Shown: positions 19,473-57,053 of the stretch, piece by piece
Position numbering within the stretch: position 1 is the stretch's first letter
How the letters are laid out: each line of letters begins with the position of its first letter
Assembly (NCBI GenBank): GCA_029261855.1
Contig: JAJDAN010000089.1
Location: 124,001 to 188,000 of the forward strand
Direction of reading: 5' to 3'
DNA from: Deltaproteobacteria bacterium
GTDB taxonomy: Bacteria > Myxococcota_A > UBA9160 > UBA4427
Length of the DNA: 64,000 nucleotides
The notes under the pieces: generated by a model
Database searches by the model: none
What the model was told of the DNA's origin: nothing
Seen by the model: only the letters and a program-made list of their open reading frames with translations
Program-made: the position numbers and the translations under genes

Positions 19473-19853
19473 TCAGGCGGGCGCGTTCCAGGCCTGGGTC
19501 AAGGGACCCCGCGTCTTCCACACGAAATAGGCGGCCGCGCAGAAGAGAGCCGCGAAGACGGCCGGGGCCGTCTGCTCGAAGGTGTCGCCGGCGATCCCGT
19601 GCGACGCGATCGCGCCGTAGAAGTCCACGGCGAAGCCCGCGAAGGCCCACTCCTTGATGCGGTCCAAGGACGGGACCAGGACGATCGCGCCTCCGGCGAT
19701 CTTGCCGACGCCGATCAGCGTCAGCGCGTAGTGCGGGAAGCCCAACCGGTCCATGGTGTCGGTCAGTTCCTTGGGGTGAGTCAGCTCGAAGATGCCGGCG
19801 CCGATCATCGCTACGCCGAACAGCCCGGTCACACCCCAATACAAAGCCTTCAT
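19473..19853 (-). CDS. DoxX-like membrane protein
   Basis: A 126-residue protein with four predicted membrane helices, in the DoxX/DoxD-like family. The signature is the first-helix YWGVTGLFGVAMIGAGIFEL, then HPKELTDTMDRLGFPHYALTLIGVGKIAGG. Family members take part in membrane redox or quinone-linked functions in some bacteria, but most have no assigned role. The ATG has GAGGAGG just upstream; longer in-frame starts lack ribosome sites. It ends eight bases from the end of the SDR gene on the other strand. Confidence 0.82.
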   Translation of the reverse strand: MKALYWGVTGLFGVAMIGAGIFELTHPKELTDTMDRLGFPHYALTLIGVGKIAGGAIVLVPSLDRIKEWAFAGFAVDFYGAIASHGIAGDTFEQTAPAVFAALFCAAAYFVWKTRGPLTQAWNAPA

Positions 19854-19911: not shown

Positions 19912-21807
19912 TCAGCGCGAAGTCGACAACACCGAGCCGGCGTTCTCGGAGCTGCTCTTCCCGACCTCGGGTGCACAGGTCTTCCACCACTCGCGGGCGC
20001 GTTCGGGCGTCCAGCCGCCGGCGTCACGGCAGGCCGCCAGACGGCGCTCCAGCTCGGCCGCAGAGGTCGGTCGCTCGTTGGGCTTCTTGCGGAGCAACGC
20101 GAGGACGATGGCTTCGAGGTCCTCGGGCACGGGCTCGCCGAGCCGCGACGAAGGCGCCTCGGGCTCCTCGGTCACGTGCGCCACGGCCATCTGCGCGGCG
20201 TTGTCCGCCTGGAAGACGGTCCGGCCCGTGACGAGCCAGTAGGCCACGCAGCCGAGCGAATAGAGATCGGAGCGGGCGTCGATCTCTTCCGCGCCGAGCA
20301 CGATCTCCGGCGCCAGACACAGGGGCGTCCCCGTGATGACGTCGGCCTTGGTGAGCGCCAGCGCGCCGGCGTCTTCCTGGGCGCGCAGCTTGACGAGTCC
20401 GAAATCGAGCACCTTCACGGCGTCGTACTCGCTTCCGAGCTGGCAGGCGAAGATGTTCGCGGGCTTGATGTCGCGGTGAAGCAGCCCGGCGTCGTGGGCC
20501 TCTTCGAGGGACTGGCAGACCTGGCGCAGCAGGTGGATGGTGCGTTCGGGCGGGAGCGGACCGAAGCGTTCCACCAGGCTCTGCAGGTCGAGGCCAGACA
20601 GCAGCTCCATCGCGTAGTAGACGGAACCGTCCTCGCTCTCTCCATAGTCGTACAGCTCGATCGTCCGGCTCGAGCGCAGGGCCGCGGTCGCGCGCGCCTC
20701 CCGTTCGAAACGAACGCGGGCGCTCTCCGCACTTTCGTCGCCTCCTCGCAGGGCGTCGACCCGGATCAGCTTGATGGCGGCGGGACGCGACAGGGACAGG
20801 TGCCGGGCGCGCCACACCTCGCCCATGCCACCCGCGCCCACGATCTCGAGCAGCTCGTAGCTACCGAGCTGCAGCGCATCTCCCTTCGCACGGAGGCCGC
20901 CCTTCGGTCTCCGGCGTCCCCACGCGAACGCCGCGGCAGCCGCCGCCAGCGCCAGCACCAGCGCGGCGGCTCCGGCAGTCAACCACACGGGGGGCGTACC
21001 GGATTCCGGCGCGTGCTGAGCCCCCAGGCCGAGGTAGCGGTTGTAGATCTCCTGGAACTCGCCGGTTCGTCGCAGGTCTGCCAGGCCGCGGTCCAGGCGC
21101 TCGAGCAGCGCCTGGTTGCCGTCGAGCACCGCGAAGCCCCAACCCGTCGAGTGGATCGGCGGACCGGACGGCTCCACGTTCTCGAGCCCGTCCCGCTGGG
21201 CGATCAGGAGACCCTGCTGATAGGGGACGAGCGCCGCCGCCTCGCCTCCCGTGTCGAGCCGGCGCAGGGCTTCGGGCTCGCTGTCCACGAGCACCGCCTC
21301 GGCCTCCATGCCGGCGGACACCAGGAACTCGTGCATCAACGAGTCTCTCTCGACCAGTACTGTCCGGCCGCGCAGGTCCTCCGCAGATCCGACACCGCGT
21401 GTTCCGTGCCGGACGAAGATCGAGTACTCGATGTTGATGAGGGGTGTCGCGAAGTCCACCCAGGACTCGCGCGCCTCGGAACGCAGCATGCCCGCCAGCG
21501 CGTCGACCTCACCACCGCGCAGCGCGTCCAGCGCGTCGGCCCACAGCATCGGCCGCAGCTCGAGCTGGAACCCCATGGTGCGCGCGACGGCGCGCATGAC
21601 GTCGACGTTGAAGCCCTCGATCCGGCCGTCCTCGAGCACGTACTCGAAGGGCGGGTAGTCCTTCGAGACCGACACCCGCACGGCATCGCCGAACCCGCCG
21701 CGGGCGGCCGGCTCCGCCTGAGCGCCCGCAGCCAGGACCCCGCCGCCTGCAAACGCCGCAAGCACCAGAGTGAGTGCACCGCGCGCGGCTCCGGGTCGTC
21801 TCGTCAC
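19912..21807 (-). CDS. Receptor-like Ser/Thr protein kinase with extracytoplasmic solute-binding (SBP_bac_3) domain
   Basis: A 631-residue fusion. A signal sequence (about 1-31) is followed by a periplasmic amino-acid-binding-type SBP_bac_3 domain (42-262; SVSKDYPPFEYVLEDGRIEG, FNVDVMRAVA, DFATP). One membrane span lies at 274-296, and a cytoplasmic Hanks kinase at about 316-600. The kinase has every essential motif: GAGGMGEV loop, Lys346, HRDIKPAN (444-451), DFG (468-470) and APE (499-501). The topology is sensor-out, kinase-in, the reverse order of PASTA kinases. It should sense a small ligand and phosphorylate proteins. It overlaps the upstream oxidase subunit gene by ATGA, so the two are translationally coupled. 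Confidence 0.9.
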   Translation of the reverse strand: MTRRPGAARGALTLVLAAFAGGGVLAAGAQAEPAARGGFGDAVRVSVSKDYPPFEYVLEDGRIEGFNVDVMRAVARTMGFQLELRPMLWADALDALRGGEVDALAGMLRSEARESWVDFATPLINIEYSIFVRHGTRGVGSAEDLRGRTVLVERDSLMHEFLVSAGMEAEAVLVDSEPEALRRLDTGGEAAALVPYQQGLLIAQRDGLENVEPSGPPIHSTGWGFAVLDGNQALLERLDRGLADLRRTGEFQEIYNRYLGLGAQHAPESGTPPVWLTAGAAALVLALAAAAAAFAWGRRRPKGGLRAKGDALQLGSYELLEIVGAGGMGEVWRARHLSLSRPAAIKLIRVDALRGGDESAESARVRFEREARATAALRSSRTIELYDYGESEDGSVYYAMELLSGLDLQSLVERFGPLPPERTIHLLRQVCQSLEEAHDAGLLHRDIKPANIFACQLGSEYDAVKVLDFGLVKLRAQEDAGALALTKADVITGTPLCLAPEIVLGAEEIDARSDLYSLGCVAYWLVTGRTVFQADNAAQMAVAHVTEEPEAPSSRLGEPVPEDLEAIVLALLRKKPNERPTSAAELERRLAACRDAGGWTPERAREWWKTCAPEVGKSSSENAGSVLSTSR

Positions 21808-22091
21808 GGCGGCCCAATGTACAAGATCGCCAGGACCCCGGCCGTCTCGAACAGGAGGAACCCGCTCATGACGAGCGCCCAGGCGACCGGGGCGCGACGC
21901 AGATCCATGAAGACGATGGCGATCAAGTGGCTCTTCAGCATGGCGAAGCCGAGCAGCCAGACGGCTGATCCAATCGCCGACCCCGTCCGGGAGTCCGCCA
22001 GCCAGAAGCTGCCGACCGTCAGCGCGACGAGCACCCCCCAGGTTGCGATCAGGACGCGCGCCTCGCGCTTCGTTTCACTTCGCTGTGCCAT
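21804..22091 (-). CDS. Prokaryotic cytochrome c oxidase subunit IV-like protein
   Basis: A 95-residue protein with three hydrophobic helices. It matches the small caa3-type subunit IV family: the segments LKSHLIAIVFMDLRRAP (about 50-66) and the following hydrophobic helix are characteristic, with the conserved His and Met-Asp-Leu. It would assist assembly of a haem-copper oxidase or nitric oxide reductase-like complex in the inner membrane. The catalytic subunits I and II are not in the window. It starts two bases after the upstream subunit III gene and overlaps the kinase gene by four bases. Confidence 0.85.
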   Translation of the reverse strand: MAQRSETKREARVLIATWGVLVALTVGSFWLADSRTGSAIGSAVWLLGFAMLKSHLIAIVFMDLRRAPVAWALVMSGFLLFETAGVLAILYIGPP

Positions 22092-22093
22092 GG

Positions 22094-22678
22094 TCAGCGC
22101 ACCAGGTAGAAGAGCGGGAACAGGAAGACCCAGATCAGGTCGACCAGGTGCCAGAAGACTGCCACCGCCTCCACGGTCGTCGGCTCGGTCGGCCCGTAGT
22201 CGCCCCTTCCCGTCCGCCAGGCAGTCGGAACGAGAAAGCCGACGCCGGCGAGGACGTGCAGGAAGTGCAGCCCCGTCACGAAGAGGTAGAAGAACCAGAA
22301 CGTACTGGTCGAAAGCGACACACCTCCCGCGAAGACCATCCCGTACTCGTGAAGCTTGATCCCCATGAAGACGACCCCCGTCGCAGCCGCGCCCCAGAGG
22401 CAGGCCGCGGCCGTGGAGGCGTCGGCCCGTCGATTGGCGAGCACGCCCCGGGCGGCGAGCAGCCCGCCGGTCAGCAGGACGCAGGTGTTGACCGCGCCCA
22501 GCAGGGGATGCAGCTGTGCCTGGCCCGCGCCGAAGGCGGCCGGGTCGGATCGGCGTGCGGCCGCGAAGCCAAAGAAGAAGAGGCCGAAGGTCAGCAGCTC
22601 GACGGCGACGAAGAGCCAAATGACGGTTCCACCCGGCAGCTCGCGACGCTCGTCCGGCAAGGTGGCGGGACTGGACAC
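22094..22678 (-). CDS. Cytochrome c oxidase subunit III-like (CtaE/NorE-type)
   Basis: A protein of 194 residues with five predicted membrane helices, in the haem-copper oxidase subunit III family (short, NorE/CyoC type). Diagnostic segments are WLFVAVELLTFGLFF, NTCVLLTGGLLAARGV, FYLFVTGLHFLHVLAG and VEAVAVFWHLVDLIWVFLFPLFYL. The start is the GTG at 22678 with GGAG six bases upstream. An in-frame ATG at 22792 would add an unlikely polar leader. It heads a three-gene operon (subunit III, subunit IV, receptor kinase) divergent from the histone-like gene. Confidence 0.88.
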   Translation of the reverse strand: MSSPATLPDERRELPGGTVIWLFVAVELLTFGLFFFGFAAARRSDPAAFGAGQAQLHPLLGAVNTCVLLTGGLLAARGVLANRRADASTAAACLWGAAATGVVFMGIKLHEYGMVFAGGVSLSTSTFWFFYLFVTGLHFLHVLAGVGFLVPTAWRTGRGDYGPTEPTTVEAVAVFWHLVDLIWVFLFPLFYLVR

Positions 22679-22797: not shown

Positions 22798-23040
22798 ATG
22801 GCTGCCAAGAAGAAGAAGAAGAAGACCGCCAAGAAGAAGACCGCGAACAAGAAGGCGGCCAGAAAGAAGACCGCGAAGAAGAAGACCGCGAAGAAGAAGA
22901 CCGCGAAGAAGAAGACCGCGAAGAAGAAGGCGGCCAAGAAGAAGGCCTCCAAGAAGAAGACCTCCCGGAAGAAGAGCGGCGAGGACCCGGACCCGTTGCG
23001 CTCGGCTGCCGTAGCGTTCGCCGCGCGGCTGCTTCGCTGA
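22798..23040 (+). CDS. Lysine/alanine-rich histone H1-like protein
   Basis: An 80-residue protein. Residues 3-60 are almost only Lys, Ala, Thr and Ser in KKKTA-type repeats, like the tail of histone H1 and the AlgP/Hc1-type bacterial proteins. The last 20 residues are ordinary (EDPDPLRSAAVAFAARLLR) and may form a short helix. It is likely to bind DNA or other polyanions and compact the nucleoid. The start is the ATG at 22798, nine bases after GGGG. The lipase-lipoprotein gene follows after three bases, so they are cotranscribed. A related Lys-rich protein occurs at 56715-57053. Confidence 0.82.
   Translation: MAAKKKKKKTAKKKTANKKAARKKTAKKKTAKKKTAKKKTAKKKAAKKKASKKKTSRKKSGEDPDPLRSAAVAFAARLLR
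22861..22935 (+). repeat. 15-bp tandem repeat in histone-like gene
   Basis: Three perfect copies of AAGAAGAAGACCGCG (22876-22920), flanked by degenerate copies, encode the Lys-Lys-Lys-Thr-Ala repeat. Because the unit is a multiple of three, gain or loss of copies changes the length of the basic tail without a frameshift. Confidence 0.85.
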
Positions 23041-40687: not shown

Positions 40688-43600
40688 ATGGACGACACCG
40701 CTCTCGAAGCCCTTGTCTCGAGCGCATCCGAACGAATCGCCGCGGACGACCGCCCCCTCTTCGACCGCTGCGCGAGGCGGCTGCTCGAGGGCGTCGAGTC
40801 CCACCCCAGCGGTGGACCGGTTGCCCTCGCCGCCCTGACGACGGAGGCCTTCGAGTGGATCCGGTTGCGGGAGCCGGGGCAGACCTGCGTCCGCGTGCGG
40901 AACTGCCCGGACCGACCGGGCCACAGCGTGCTCGAGACGCTCCAGGACGATCGCCCCTTCATCCTCGACACCCTCGAGCTGGTGCTGGCGCGCTTTGGGG
41001 TCCAGGAACGCCTGGTCATCCACCCCATCCTGCGGGTCGTCCGGGACGCTTCGGGTCAGCTGCTCGACATCCAGCCGGGCTCGAACGGCGAGCCGAGCGA
41101 GTCCTACGTCTATATCGAGTTCACGCCGCCGATCGAGGCGCCGCGCCGTCTCCGCGAGCTCGAGAATCACGTGCGGCAGGTGATGTCCTGGGTGGCCGAC
41201 GTCACCGAGGACCACCGCCGCATGATCCGCGCCGTCCGCGAGCTCAGCGCGAACCTCGAGTTCGCGGGGCCCTCCATCGAGGGCGGGACCAACCGCACCG
41301 AGCGCGTCCAGAGCTTTCTCGACTGGGTGATCGACGGCCGCTTCCTGCTCGTCGGGACCCGCCGCTACCGGGCCAGCCGAGCCGGCGGCGAGCTCGAGGT
41401 CCAGATCATCCCTCAGACCGGGCTCGGGATGTGGCGAGACGACGGTGCCAGCCGGTTGAAGGAGCCCTTGCGCGGAGACGCGGTCCCCGCAGAGATCCGG
41501 GAAGACCTCGAGGACCCGCGCATCATCCTGATCAGCAAGTCGCACATGGAATCGCGCATCCACCGCGCGGGCCGGCTCGACCGCATCTTCGTCAAGGAAC
41601 ACGACGAAGGGGGAAATCTCACCGGCTTCACGATCCTCGTCGGGCTCTTCACACGCCGCGTCCTGCGCACGCCGGGGTCTCAGATCCCGCTGCTGTCCGA
41701 ACGCCTGCGCGAGCTGATCGATCGCATGGGCCTGACCTATGGGTCGCACGCGCACCAGGCCATCGTCACGGCCTTCGACTCGCTCCCCGTCGAGCTGCTG
41801 GTGGGCGCCGACGTGGATCGTCTCGCCGACCTGCTTCCCGAGCTGGTATCGGCCGCGTCCGCGAAGTCCGTACGGCTGGTGACTCGAACCCACCCGCGCG
41901 GGCGGCTTCTCTATGCCGCCATCGTGATCCCGCGCGAGCACTACCGCGAGGACCTGCGGGTCGAGATCCGACAGCTGCTGATGCGGCGCACGGGCGCTCG
42001 CTTCATCGACGACCGCACCTCCTTCGTCGAGGAAGGTGCCGCGATCGTTCACTGCTTCTGCACCTCCGCAGAAGGCGAGACGATCCACGCCGATCTGTCG
42101 CGCCTCGAGGAGGAGGTGCGGCAGCTGTGCTCGCCCTGGGAAGACCAGCTGCTCGACGCCCTGCGCGAGGCCCTCGACGGCGACGCGGCCCGCAGTCTCG
42201 CCGCGCGCTACGAACGCGCCTTCCCAGAGACCCTCCACGTCGCCACCCACGCGACGGATGCGGTCCGCGACGTACGGGGTCTCGAAGCGCTGGCAGAAGC
42301 CGGGCAGCCCCAGTGCGCGCTCTTCTTCGATCGCGACGATGACGAACGCGAAACCTCGACCCTTCGCCTCTATCTGGCCGAAAGTCCCCTGCTTTCGGAT
42401 GTCCTTCCGATCGCCGACCACTTCGGCCTCCAGGTGCTGGACGCCCAGCTCTTCGAGATCTCGCCGGCGGATCGGCCCGAATGTTTCATCGAATCCCTGC
42501 GGATCCTGCCGCTCGGCACCACCCAGGACGATCTCGACGCCATCTCCCCCAACCTGTCCGACGCGCTCCAGGCCACGCTGACCGGCGAGATGCAGAGCGA
42601 CGCGCTCAACGCTCTCGTGCTCGCCGCCGGCCTCGACTGGCGACAGGTCGACCTGCTGCGGGCCTATCAGGAGTACTTCCTTCGCATCCAGGGCGTGCTG
42701 TCGAGGCCCTACCTATGCCGCGTATTGATCGACAACCCGGTCGCCGCACGCATGCTCGTGCACTGGTTCGAGGCGCGCTTCGATCCGACTCTCGACGACA
42801 CCCAGCGGGCACCTCGGGCGCAGGACCTCGAGCAGGCGCTGCAGTCCTACCGGGACCGCATCACCGCGCTCAATGAGGACCGGGCCCTACGGGGCTTCTT
42901 CGACCTGATCCGCGCGACGGTGCGAACCAACTATTTCGCGCCCGCCTCCCGGCCGCACCGAGTCGTCCTGAAGTTCGACCCACGCGGGATCGGCGAGCTG
43001 TCGGGCGTGGTTCCGCATCGGGAAATCTTCGTGCACTCGGCCGAGCTCACGGGCATCCACCTGCGCGGCGGACCGGTCGCGCGCGGCGGACTGCGCTGGA
43101 GCGACCGCCACGACGACCTGCGCGTGGAAGTCCTCGATCTCATGAGCACCCAGATGCTCAAGAACGGGATCATCGTCCCGGTCGGCGCGAAGGGCGGGTT
43201 CGTCATGCGCCGCGAGGGACTCTCGCCCGCGGAAGCGCGTGCCGGCGCCGACGAGCAGTACCGCGTCTTCATCGCGAGCCTGCTGGACGTGACCGACAAC
43301 CTCTCTCCCGAGGGTAACGTCCTGCCGCCGGCGGGCGTGCTCCGATTGGACGGCGACGACCCCTACCTGGTGGTGGCAGCCGACAAGGGGACCGCGCACC
43401 TCTCGGACACCGCGAACGAGATCGCGTTGAGCCGGGACTTCTGGCTCGGCGACGCCTTCGCATCCGGTGGGTCGGAGGGCTACGACCACAAGCGCTACGC
43501 GATCACCGCGCGCGGCGCATGGGAATGCGTCAAGCACCACCTCTTCGGTCTCGGGGTCGACCCGGAACGAGACAGCTACGAGGTCGCGGGCATCGGCGAC

Positions 43601-45478
43601 ATGTCGGGAGACGTCTTCGGCAACGGCCTGCTGCTGATGCGGCGCGCGAAGCTGCTCGCTGCCTTCGACCACCGCCACGTCTTCCTCGACCCGGACCCGG
43701 ACCCGGATCGCTCGTTTGCCGAGCGCAAGCGTCTGTTCGAGCTGAAGAACTCCAGCTGGGACGACTACGCGAAGGACATCCTGTCGGAAGGCGGCGGCGT
43801 CTGGCCGCGTGGGTCGAAGCGCATCCCGATACCGAAGGCGCTCCGTGCGCGCCTGGGGCTCGGCGACGAGGCCAGCGGGCAGGCGGTCGTCCGGGCCATC
43901 CTCGGCCTGGACGTCGACATCCTCTGGAACGGTGGCATCGGGACCTACGTCAAGGCCGCTCACGAGAACCATGCCGAGGTCGGCGACCGCGCGAACGACG
44001 CCGTCCGCATCGACGCCGGCGCGCTGCGCGCCCGCATCGTGGGCGAAGGCGGCAACCTGGGCCTCACCCAGGCCGCCCGGGTGGAAGCCGCCGGGAACGG
44101 CGTCTGCATGGACACCGACGCCATCCACAACAGTGCGGGTGTGGACCTTTCGGATCACGAGGTCAACTTCAAGATCGCGCTGGCGCCGCTGGTGCGTTCG
44201 GGACGGCTCAGCCCGGAAGAACGTCGCGCCTTGCTCTTCGACGTGGCCGAGCAGGCCTGCGAGAGCACCCTCGCCCACAACCGCGGACAGGCGATGGCGA
44301 TCTCGCTCGACGAGATCCGCTCGCGTCAGGATTCGGAAGCGTTCGCGAACGCCCTCACCAGTCTGTGCGAGCACGCCGGCTACGCGCCGTCGGACCTCGA
44401 CCTGCCGGACGCGGAAGCCCTGCGCGCCCGCGCCGCCGAGGGGCGAGGATTGCTGCGGCCCGAGCTGGCCGTGCTGCTCGGGCTCGCCAAGCTCGAGCTC
44501 AAGGCCGCGCTCCACGACAGCGGCTTCACCGAGAGCCCCTATCTCGAACCGATCTACCGCTCGTACTTCCCGGCGCGCTTCCGCGACGAGCTACCCGAAG
44601 CACTCGAGGGCCACCGCCTGCGCGCGGAGATCGCCACCCTGTGCGTCGTCAACCAGCTGGTGGACGACGGCGGCGCGGCCCTCTTCCCCTCGCTGCAGGG
44701 CGAGCTCGGTGTGGACGCCGCGACCACCGCGGCCGCCATGCTGCTGGCCGCCGACGTCATGCGAGTACCGGAAGTACGCCGTCAGATCGAGGACGAGACG
44801 TCGATGTCGCGCGCCTCCATCTACGCGATGCTCGTCGAACTCGACGACGGGGTCCGCACCGTGGCCCGCTTCCTGGTCAAGGCCGGGATTGCCGGGCTCG
44901 ACCTCGAGCGCGCCCAGCGCTGGCGCGTGGCACTCGACGGACTCTTCGCCGGACTGCGGAACTTCCTCGCGCCGAGTGAGCTCCGCCGCCTCGACGAGCG
45001 CCGCAATCGCTTCACGGAAGCCGGGCTCCCGCGTGACCTGGCCGATCGGGTGGCCTGTTTGCCCCTCGCGGACCGGGGCCTCAACATCCTGCGCGTGATC
45101 GAGACGACGTCGATGTCCCCGGTCGAGGCGGCCCGGGTCTACACCCACCTGGGAGAGCGAGCCGGGCTCAACTGGATGTACGAGCGCCTGGTTTCGATTC
45201 ACAGCGGCACCTTCTGGGACCGGATGATCCTGGCGGATCTGCGGCAGAATCTGCTCGACCTGCAGCGCGCCATCACCGAGCACGTCTTGATCGGGAAGCC
45301 GGACGACCCGAGCATTCCCCTCGACAGGTTCCTCGCGACCCACGCGGACGACATCCGTCGCGTCCGCGAGCTGCAGCAGAGAGTCGCCGCGACGGCGACG
45401 CCGAGCGCTCTATCGGCGATTGCAGCGCGCTTCGAACGTCTGCGCCCGCGGATCGCAAACGACGCGAGCGATTCATGA
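40688..45478 (+). CDS. NAD-specific glutamate dehydrogenase (large, about 180 kDa type)
   Basis: A 1596-residue protein of the large bacterial NAD-GDH family, which interconverts glutamate and 2-oxoglutarate with ammonia. The N-terminal half holds ACT-like and helical regulatory regions. The catalytic core is about residues 790-1220: GIHLRGGPVARGGLRWSDR, then KNGIIVPVGAKGGFV with the substrate Lys (near 830-845), NGIGTYVKA-type segment DILWNGGIGTYVK (near 1078) and RIVGEGGNLGLTQAARVE with the nucleotide loop. The rest is a long helical C-terminus. Length matches the family (1500-1650). The start ATG follows TACAGT by eight bases. Confidence 0.95.
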   Translation: MDDTALEALVSSASERIAADDRPLFDRCARRLLEGVESHPSGGPVALAALTTEAFEWIRLREPGQTCVRVRNCPDRPGHSVLETLQDDRPFILDTLELVLARFGVQERLVIHPILRVVRDASGQLLDIQPGSNGEPSESYVYIEFTPPIEAPRRLRELENHVRQVMSWVADVTEDHRRMIRAVRELSANLEFAGPSIEGGTNRTERVQSFLDWVIDGRFLLVGTRRYRASRAGGELEVQIIPQTGLGMWRDDGASRLKEPLRGDAVPAEIREDLEDPRIILISKSHMESRIHRAGRLDRIFVKEHDEGGNLTGFTILVGLFTRRVLRTPGSQIPLLSERLRELIDRMGLTYGSHAHQAIVTAFDSLPVELLVGADVDRLADLLPELVSAASAKSVRLVTRTHPRGRLLYAAIVIPREHYREDLRVEIRQLLMRRTGARFIDDRTSFVEEGAAIVHCFCTSAEGETIHADLSRLEEEVRQLCSPWEDQLLDALREALDGDAARSLAARYERAFPETLHVATHATDAVRDVRGLEALAEAGQPQCALFFDRDDDERETSTLRLYLAESPLLSDVLPIADHFGLQVLDAQLFEISPADRPECFIESLRILPLGTTQDDLDAISPNLSDALQATLTGEMQSDALNALVLAAGLDWRQVDLLRAYQEYFLRIQGVLSRPYLCRVLIDNPVAARMLVHWFEARFDPTLDDTQRAPRAQDLEQALQSYRDRITALNEDRALRGFFDLIRATVRTNYFAPASRPHRVVLKFDPRGIGELSGVVPHREIFVHSAELTGIHLRGGPVARGGLRWSDRHDDLRVEVLDLMSTQMLKNGIIVPVGAKGGFVMRREGLSPAEARAGADEQYRVFIASLLDVTDNLSPEGNVLPPAGVLRLDGDDPYLVVAADKGTAHLSDTANEIALSRDFWLGDAFASGGSEGYDHKRYAITARGAWECVKHHLFGLGVDPERDSYEVAGIGDMSGDVFGNGLLLMRRAKLLAAFDHRHVFLDPDPDPDRSFAERKRLFELKNSSWDDYAKDILSEGGGVWPRGSKRIPIPKALRARLGLGDEASGQAVVRAILGLDVDILWNGGIGTYVKAAHENHAEVGDRANDAVRIDAGALRARIVGEGGNLGLTQAARVEAAGNGVCMDTDAIHNSAGVDLSDHEVNFKIALAPLVRSGRLSPEERRALLFDVAEQACESTLAHNRGQAMAISLDEIRSRQDSEAFANALTSLCEHAGYAPSDLDLPDAEALRARAAEGRGLLRPELAVLLGLAKLELKAALHDSGFTESPYLEPIYRSYFPARFRDELPEALEGHRLRAEIATLCVVNQLVDDGGAALFPSLQGELGVDAATTAAAMLLAADVMRVPEVRRQIEDETSMSRASIYAMLVELDDGVRTVARFLVKAGIAGLDLERAQRWRVALDGLFAGLRNFLAPSELRRLDERRNRFTEAGLPRDLADRVACLPLADRGLNILRVIETTSMSPVEAARVYTHLGERAGLNWMYERLVSIHSGTFWDRMILADLRQNLLDLQRAITEHVLIGKPDDPSIPLDRFLATHADDIRRVRELQQRVAATATPSALSAIAARFERLRPRIANDASDS

Positions 45479-56714: not shown

Positions 56715-57053
56715 CTAGGCCTTCTTGGCGGCCGCCTTCTTCTTGCGCCGGGGCTTGGGCTTGGCGGGCTCGATCAGCTTCTCGAGCTTGCGGAGCGCCT
56801 TCACCGCGTCCTTCCGGATCTGCGTCTCGGCCTTGTGCAGCCGCTTCTCGGCGTCCGAACGCGCCTTGTCGATCTGCTTCTCGAGATCCCGGACGTTCTT
56901 GCGAAGCTCGCTCACGCGCTTGGCGCCCGCGGTGGGAAGCTGCTTTTCGAGGGCCTTCAAGTTGTCGTCGAAGGTCTGGCGGGCGCTGCGGCTCTTCGGG
57001 GTGCTCTTCTTCTTCGTGCTCTTCTTCTTGGCGGTCTTCTTCTTGGCAGCCAT
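56715..57053 (-). CDS. Lysine-rich coiled-coil histone-like protein
   Basis: A 112-residue protein. The N-terminus is Lys-rich (MAAKKKTAKKKSTKKK), the middle (about 25-95) is a charged heptad-type helix likely to form a coiled coil (LEKQLPTAGAKRVSELRKNV, LEKQIDKARSDAEKRL) and the C-terminus is again basic (KPRRKKKAAAKKA). This resembles histone H1-like and poly-lysine proteins that bind DNA. It shares the MAAKKK start with the protein at 22798-23040 but has the additional coil. AAGGAG lies 12 bases before the ATG. It converges on the efflux operon. Confidence 0.78.
   Translation of the reverse strand: MAAKKKTAKKKSTKKKSTPKSRSARQTFDDNLKALEKQLPTAGAKRVSELRKNVRDLEKQIDKARSDAEKRLHKAETQIRKDAVKALRKLEKLIEPAKPKPRRKKKAAAKKA

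Follow-up and report, generated by a model that had tools for sequence, protein, structure and literature searches.

Does a receptor-type protein kinase that is encoded beside apparent respiratory genes belong to the control of respiration, and what kind of receptor is it? The question is raised by a locus in a 64,000-nucleotide stretch (here called the window) of an assembly assigned to a Deltaproteobacteria bacterium (GCA_029261855.1, contig JAJDAN010000089.1, positions 124,001 to 188,000), where one reverse-strand gene encodes a solute-binding protein (SBP) domain of the SBP_bac_3 family fused to a Hanks-type Ser/Thr kinase. The reading that we favor, with a probability of roughly 0.78, is that the product is a one-protein receptor Ser/Thr kinase in which a sensor of the histidine-kinase type was swapped into a lineage of receptors with a C-terminal kinase, and that its gene is part of a transcription unit with norE- and norF-like genes, whose products would be accessory proteins of a nitric oxide (NO) reductase.

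The overall architecture is the one that the original prediction, made from the sequence of the window, had described: a periplasmic SBP_bac_3 domain at the N-terminus of a complete Hanks kinase, in the order sensor, membrane, kinase. Both domains lie above the curated Pfam cut-offs (E = 1.4e-30 for SBP_bac_3 and 1.4e-39 for Pkinase) and are profile matches far beyond chance. In addition to the Pkinase domain, the protein has the full set of motifs by which a Hanks-type Ser/Thr kinase is recognized: the glycine loop GAGGMGEV at residue 324, AAIK at 343, HRD at 444, DFG at 468 and APE at 499. The best solved relative of this domain is PknB (E = 2e-54). Because the N-terminus resembles a signal peptide, the only hydrophobic span is followed by RRRPK and the kinase motifs are C-terminal, the predicted topology is a periplasmic sensor, one membrane span and a cytoplasmic kinase (Table 1).

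The two halves of the protein have different kin. With respect to the sensor, the AlphaFold2 model of the SBP domain (mean predicted local distance difference test score, pLDDT, 90.1) predicts a Venus-flytrap fold, and a Foldseek search with this model puts the structure 3h7m first (36% identity, TM-score 0.90). The same structure, whose title describes a histidine-kinase sensor domain similar to periplasmic binding proteins, is also the top match ("Sensor protein", E = 2.6e-43) of a phmmer search against solved structures, and BvgS and EvgS match the sensor as well. At E≤1e-25 the sensor has five further matches in the 79 genomes of the window's order, all of them SBP-histidine kinases. When a profile of six sensor sequences was run at the same threshold against the 377 genomes of the phylum (here, as in the other phylum-wide searches, at most seven candidates were scored per genome), 29 places in 25 genomes were found. 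Only two of the 29 corresponding open reading frames (ORFs) have a Ser/Thr-kinase motif, the window gene and a homologue in the genome that we call G003. The others mostly carry histidine-kinase motifs and one has GGDEF. In the remainder no motif of those looked for is present, some of these being free SBPs and some being cut by the end of the stretch read. By sequence and modeled fold, then, the nearest relatives of the sensor are the sensors of histidine kinases.

The relatives of the kinase domain were read at 30 loci out of more than 150 matches, and these gave 29 ORFs, the window's own included (one locus, L153, had no motif-bearing ORF). Among the matches listed, the nearest kinases of the phylum are 42–56% identical. 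The kinase is C-terminal in 26 of the 29 ORFs, and directly after it 23 have a tail resembling W-x4-A-x2-WW; the tail was aligned for 11 ORFs together with the window protein, drawn from 18 loci of which seven had no ORF by motif. The N-terminal parts of these proteins are mostly polytopic membrane segments. Within the order they are dCache-like sensors (one above the Pfam cut-off and three weak), with one sensor left unassigned by Pfam, and an SBP sensor is found in a single one of the 29 ORFs, that of the window. Since 26 of the 29 share the C-terminal kinase, the order of sensor, membrane and kinase is the norm of this group, and the weight that the original prediction had put on this order as something remarkable is misplaced; what sets the window protein apart is its SBP sensor.

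How unusual this sensor is can be judged from several counts. Close SBP-kinases occur in two of the 79 order genomes and two of the 377 phylum genomes. There is one full-length homologue, that of G003, with 58% identity overall and 54% in the sensor, where long blocks are conserved. A scan of genome contigs with two peptide patterns returned 12 loci, one of which was this homologue (JAFDEK010000132.1, "Deltaproteobacteria bacterium isolate Meg19_46_Bin_145"), and none of the 12 was a further kinase fusion. Finally, an order-wide search with Pfam PF00497 (SBP_bac_3) yielded 41 frames of at least 540 amino acids, picked by eye among the matches listed; seven were already known (the two kinase fusions and the five histidine kinases), and the other 34 lack a Ser/Thr-kinase motif. 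All of these counts refer to the window's order and phylum; the sampling of other phyla is uneven, and hence they give no figure for global rarity. The fusion is rare, though not without precedent. That such proteins are uncommon, as had been supposed, holds for this phylum, but the pair had already been tabulated for Gram-positive bacteria: five of 55 SBP_bac_3 genes of their siderophore clusters co-occur with a Pkinase domain in Table 1 of PMC13293324. No functional study of an SBP_bac_3+Pkinase fusion was found in the open-licence PMC literature.

We now turn to the neighbors. Two genes precede the kinase gene on the same strand, the first of the COX3 family and the second of the COX4_pro family, with 2 nucleotides (nt) between the stop of the former and the ATG of the latter. 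As had been predicted, the start of the kinase gene overlaps the stop of the COX4-family gene; the GTG and the TGA share 4 nt. A codon-based gene caller finds all three genes but sets the kinase start at 21765 instead. This overlap and the Pfam names of the two families speak for the proposal of a kinase coupling nutrient or redox sensing to cytochrome oxidase through its subunits III and IV. However, the pair does not sit in an operon with subunits I and II, no COX1 match exists within the window, and the two oxidase-type loci read elsewhere in the genome (C83 and C89:218916, a further COX1 locus, C24, being left out) carry a subunit III of their own. Moreover, the COX3-family protein has close relatives, of 74–76% identity, in three other genomes of the order (G072, G016 and G018), all other matches being at or below 40%. 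In G016 the pair runs into genes for a cytochrome c and for COX1-family, AAA/CbbQ_C and VWA proteins, that is, a contiguous norE-norF-norC-norB-norQ-norD. The window's own genome has norC-norB-norQ-norD outside the window at C89:248132-252901 (L102 5133-9902), some 102 kb from norEF, and thus the two parts are split here. Relatives of norB occur in 13 of the 79 order genomes and in all four that have a close norE (hypergeometric p = 4.8e-4). Further afield, a COX3-family gene adjoins norCBQD in all three plasmids opened (from Ruegeria, Azospirillum and Roseibium, out of 20 matches listed); the gene next to it is annotated as COX4 family in two of them and as hypothetical in the third. The neighbors are most likely NorE and NorF, accessory proteins of the cNOR type of NO reductase. 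Their matches in NCBIfam are to oxidase models, all below cut-off, and no NorE model appeared, so that the name derives from context and similarity. NorE and NorF are reported in PMC9976466 to have had no effect on heterologous cNOR. The full-length kinase homologue is also unlinked to oxidase genes (see below). Coupling to the oxidase through subunits III and IV was rejected as the leading explanation; it is largely refuted and in our view highly improbable.

The kinase gene is followed after 58 nt by a gene of the DoxX_2 family, with AGGAGG, a strong ribosome-binding site, before its ATG; the operon may end with this gene. The spacing predicts that the kinase gene, norE and norF are co-transcribed in this genome as a unit of three or four genes.

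Table 1. Features of the kinase locus (positions in the window; residues are those of the kinase protein).
Feature	Positions	Strand	Basis
SBP_bac_3–transmembrane–Hanks Ser/Thr kinase gene	19912..21807	-	631 aa, GTG start; ORF call, Pfam, codon-based gene caller
Signal-peptide-like segment, residues 1-31 (MTRRPGAAR...AQA-EP)	21715..21807	-	Hydropathy, residues 10-30; cleavage site by eye
Predicted periplasmic SBP_bac_3 (Venus-flytrap) sensor, residues 43-260	21028..21681	-	Pfam, AlphaFold2, Foldseek, alignment
Predicted single transmembrane helix, residues 274-296, then RRRPK	20920..20988	-	Hydropathy (span ~272-298); helix in model
Hanks-type kinase domain, residues 317-584	20056..20859	-	Pfam; PknB best solved relative; motifs
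Tail motif WTPERAREWW, residues 599-608	19984..20013	-	Alignment; common to related receptor kinases
NorF-like protein (COX4_pro family)	21804..22091	-	Pfam E 1.7e-10; pairs with NorE-like gene in relatives
NorE-like protein (COX3 family)	22094..22678	-	Pfam E 1.1e-14; relatives in nor context
DoxX_2-family membrane protein	19473..19853	-	Pfam E 9.2e-21

Several observations weigh against the view that this is a ligand-gated receptor kinase belonging to a norEF unit, and they concern the kinase model, the sensor and the gene context in turn. The full-length AlphaFold2 model has a mean pLDDT of only 61.9, and in two parts of the kinase domain (residues 336-415 and 440-509) the values are lower than 50; it was not used for the kinase, the identity of which therefore rests on its sequence. 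The sensor, for its part, could be a degenerate domain that binds no ligand and acts solely in dimerization, oligomerization or protein docking. In the amino-acid binders of the SBP_bac_3 family we take an Arg (Arg113 here) to be the contact of the ligand's carboxylate and an Asp to be that of its ammonium group. AncQR carries the Asp in its alignment with the sensor (phmmer, solved structures), but this position is Pro, Pro, Pro, Ala, Gly and Pro in the six sensors aligned (Pro195 in the window protein), and the residue pair of an amino-acid binder is thus incomplete. On the other hand, Arg113 is invariant in all six, and the conserved blocks shared by the sensors of the two fusion proteins, at an identity close to that of the proteins as a whole, also argue against a domain without a ligand, which we consider unlikely. 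With the Arg kept and the Asp replaced, our guess would be that the ligand is a carboxylate other than a standard alpha-amino acid.

With respect to gene context, the linkage between the kinase and norEF is not conserved. In G003 the only full-length homologue has no norEF at its side: it lies behind genes that resemble, by eye, those for an enoyl-CoA hydratase and a major facilitator superfamily transporter, with no COX or nor gene adjoining, and neither norB nor a close norE was detected in that genome. Three of the four close-norE loci, in turn, have no kinase beside them, so that the linkage is seen in one of two kinase homologues and one of four norE loci. Nor does an FNR/NNR-type box (TTGAY-N4-RTCAA, with one mismatch allowed) occur ahead of norE or norC; the overall counts of this pattern are at chance level. 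These results bear on the idea of a dedicated switch for NO respiration, in which the kinase would sense a periplasmic signal of denitrification and phosphorylate NorE, NorF, NorQ/D or a regulator so as to control the assembly or expression of the NO reductase. Such a role would be in keeping with the translational overlap with norF and with the presence of norCBQD in the same genome, but with the kinase missing at three of the four close-norE loci and present in a genome without detected norB, we regard it as quite unlikely. We rank above it the explanation that the kinase gene was inserted behind norEF by chance and shares their transcript while its product has unrelated targets. Such an explanation bears on nothing but the linkage, is compatible with the receptor-kinase reading, and seems to us to have a somewhat better than even chance, despite the 4-nt overlap and the tight spacing of norE, norF and kinase, which suggest that co-expression has been tolerated or selected. 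The original prediction's more general claim, that sensing and respiration are coupled at this locus, has so far failed the comparison with homologues, because the only full-length one is unlinked to COX or nor genes and most close-norE loci lack the kinase.

For the favored receptor kinase, a mechanism can be proposed by analogy with the SBP-type histidine kinases and the Hanks receptor kinases. A small ligand would close the periplasmic SBP_bac_3 domain, which is of the type used by sensor histidine kinases; the closure movement would be passed through the one membrane helix and alter the dimerization of the cytoplasmic Hanks kinase; and the kinase domains would then autophosphorylate in trans before phosphorylating their substrates. 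As to origin, we infer that an SBP sensor of the histidine-kinase type replaced an earlier sensor in a receptor-kinase lineage that already had the C-terminal kinase and the W-x4-A-x2-WW tail, and that the gene came to be co-transcribed with norEF.

Seven loci of related, non-fused receptor kinases were also inspected, and two of them have free SBP_bac_3 genes nearby. The receptor kinases of these two are dCache-like. At the G057 locus two divergent SBP_bac_3 genes lie by the receptor kinase (L032 1378-2232 and 2229-3038, by Pfam), and at the G076 locus one SBP gene lies downstream of it (L210 9220-10035, by the six-sequence sensor profile). This suggests a pairing of SBP and receptor kinase in trans at these two loci; that the window fusion is the covalent version of such a pairing is speculation from few loci. 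A still bolder proposal, that this lineage has repeatedly paired SBPs with C-terminal receptor kinases (the window fusion being a pairing in cis, and the G057 and G076 loci possible cases in trans), with the window kinase reading a periplasmic metabolite and controlling NO-reductase assembly via NorE and NorF, strikes us as very doubtful. Four of the seven loci have a large membrane protein directly after the receptor kinase (L032 5277-7532, L034 2720-5044, L035 2845-5019 and L210 6919-9132); the two that were scanned with Pfam have weak similarity to ATP/ADP translocases (TLC), and one of them is also HEAT-like.

Two other features of the window may be mentioned. Lys/Ala/Thr-rich, histone-H1-like repeat proteins (AKKKTAKKK) are encoded at 22798-23040 (+), divergent from norE, and at 56715-57053 (-), neither having a match in a Pfam search. 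A large NAD-glutamate dehydrogenase (Bac_GDH_CD, 1596 aa) is encoded at 40688-45478 (+), 19 kb from the kinase gene and with no link to it shown; in actinobacteria, 2-oxoglutarate metabolism is a target of the PknG pathway.

Sensors for which a routine binding screen could identify the ligand are scarce among the receptor Ser/Thr kinases of bacteria. With a Venus-flytrap sensor, input, transmembrane signaling and kinase output would be testable within one protein, and alongside its histidine-kinase cousins one could directly compare how a single type of sensor drives two kinase chemistries. If the nor link is functional, denitrification would here be subject to Ser/Thr phosphorylation, which to our knowledge is unusual, although no search aimed at this claim was made. 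The NorEF reading is also a warning that a COX3/COX4 pair standing alone in an automatic annotation may encode accessories of NO reductase.

Among known systems, a Streptomyces plasmid protein (WP_329468636.1, L209) likewise joins a Ser/Thr kinase to an extracellular SBP domain, but in the reverse order, with the kinase N-terminal and an SBP of another family, SBP_bac_5, at the C-terminus. The Gram-positive siderophore-cluster genes have the same Pfam pair as the window protein in another phylum and context, the table in PMC13293324 giving neither domain order nor function. In the GlnH-GlnX-PknG system of Corynebacterium and Mycobacterium, as described in PMC9769921, a Ser/Thr kinase on the other side of the membrane is likewise under the control of an SBP_bac_3 protein (GlnH); there the parts are three separate proteins and PknG is cytoplasmic, whereas the window encodes a single polypeptide. 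The PASTA kinases (PknB/Stk1) are the best solved relatives of the kinase domain and, like the window protein, have one transmembrane helix, but the latter has an N-terminal sensor, no PASTA repeats detectable by Pfam, and a score for the PASTA-kinase model NF033483 of 239.4 bits against a cut-off of 450. Closer in kinase sequence are the dCache-type receptor kinases of L032, L033, L035 and L038, which have the same domain order, kinases 45–48% identical and the same WW tail, and differ in a dCache-like sensor in place of SBP_bac_3 (only L033 passes the Pfam dCache_1 cut-off, the others being weak). The SBP_bac_3-type sensor histidine kinases (3h7m, BvgS and EvgS) share with the window protein the type of periplasmic sensor, followed by a membrane helix and a cytoplasmic kinase. 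Their output is HisKA/HATPase, for which Pfam finds no match in the fusion protein; here the output is a Hanks Ser/Thr kinase.

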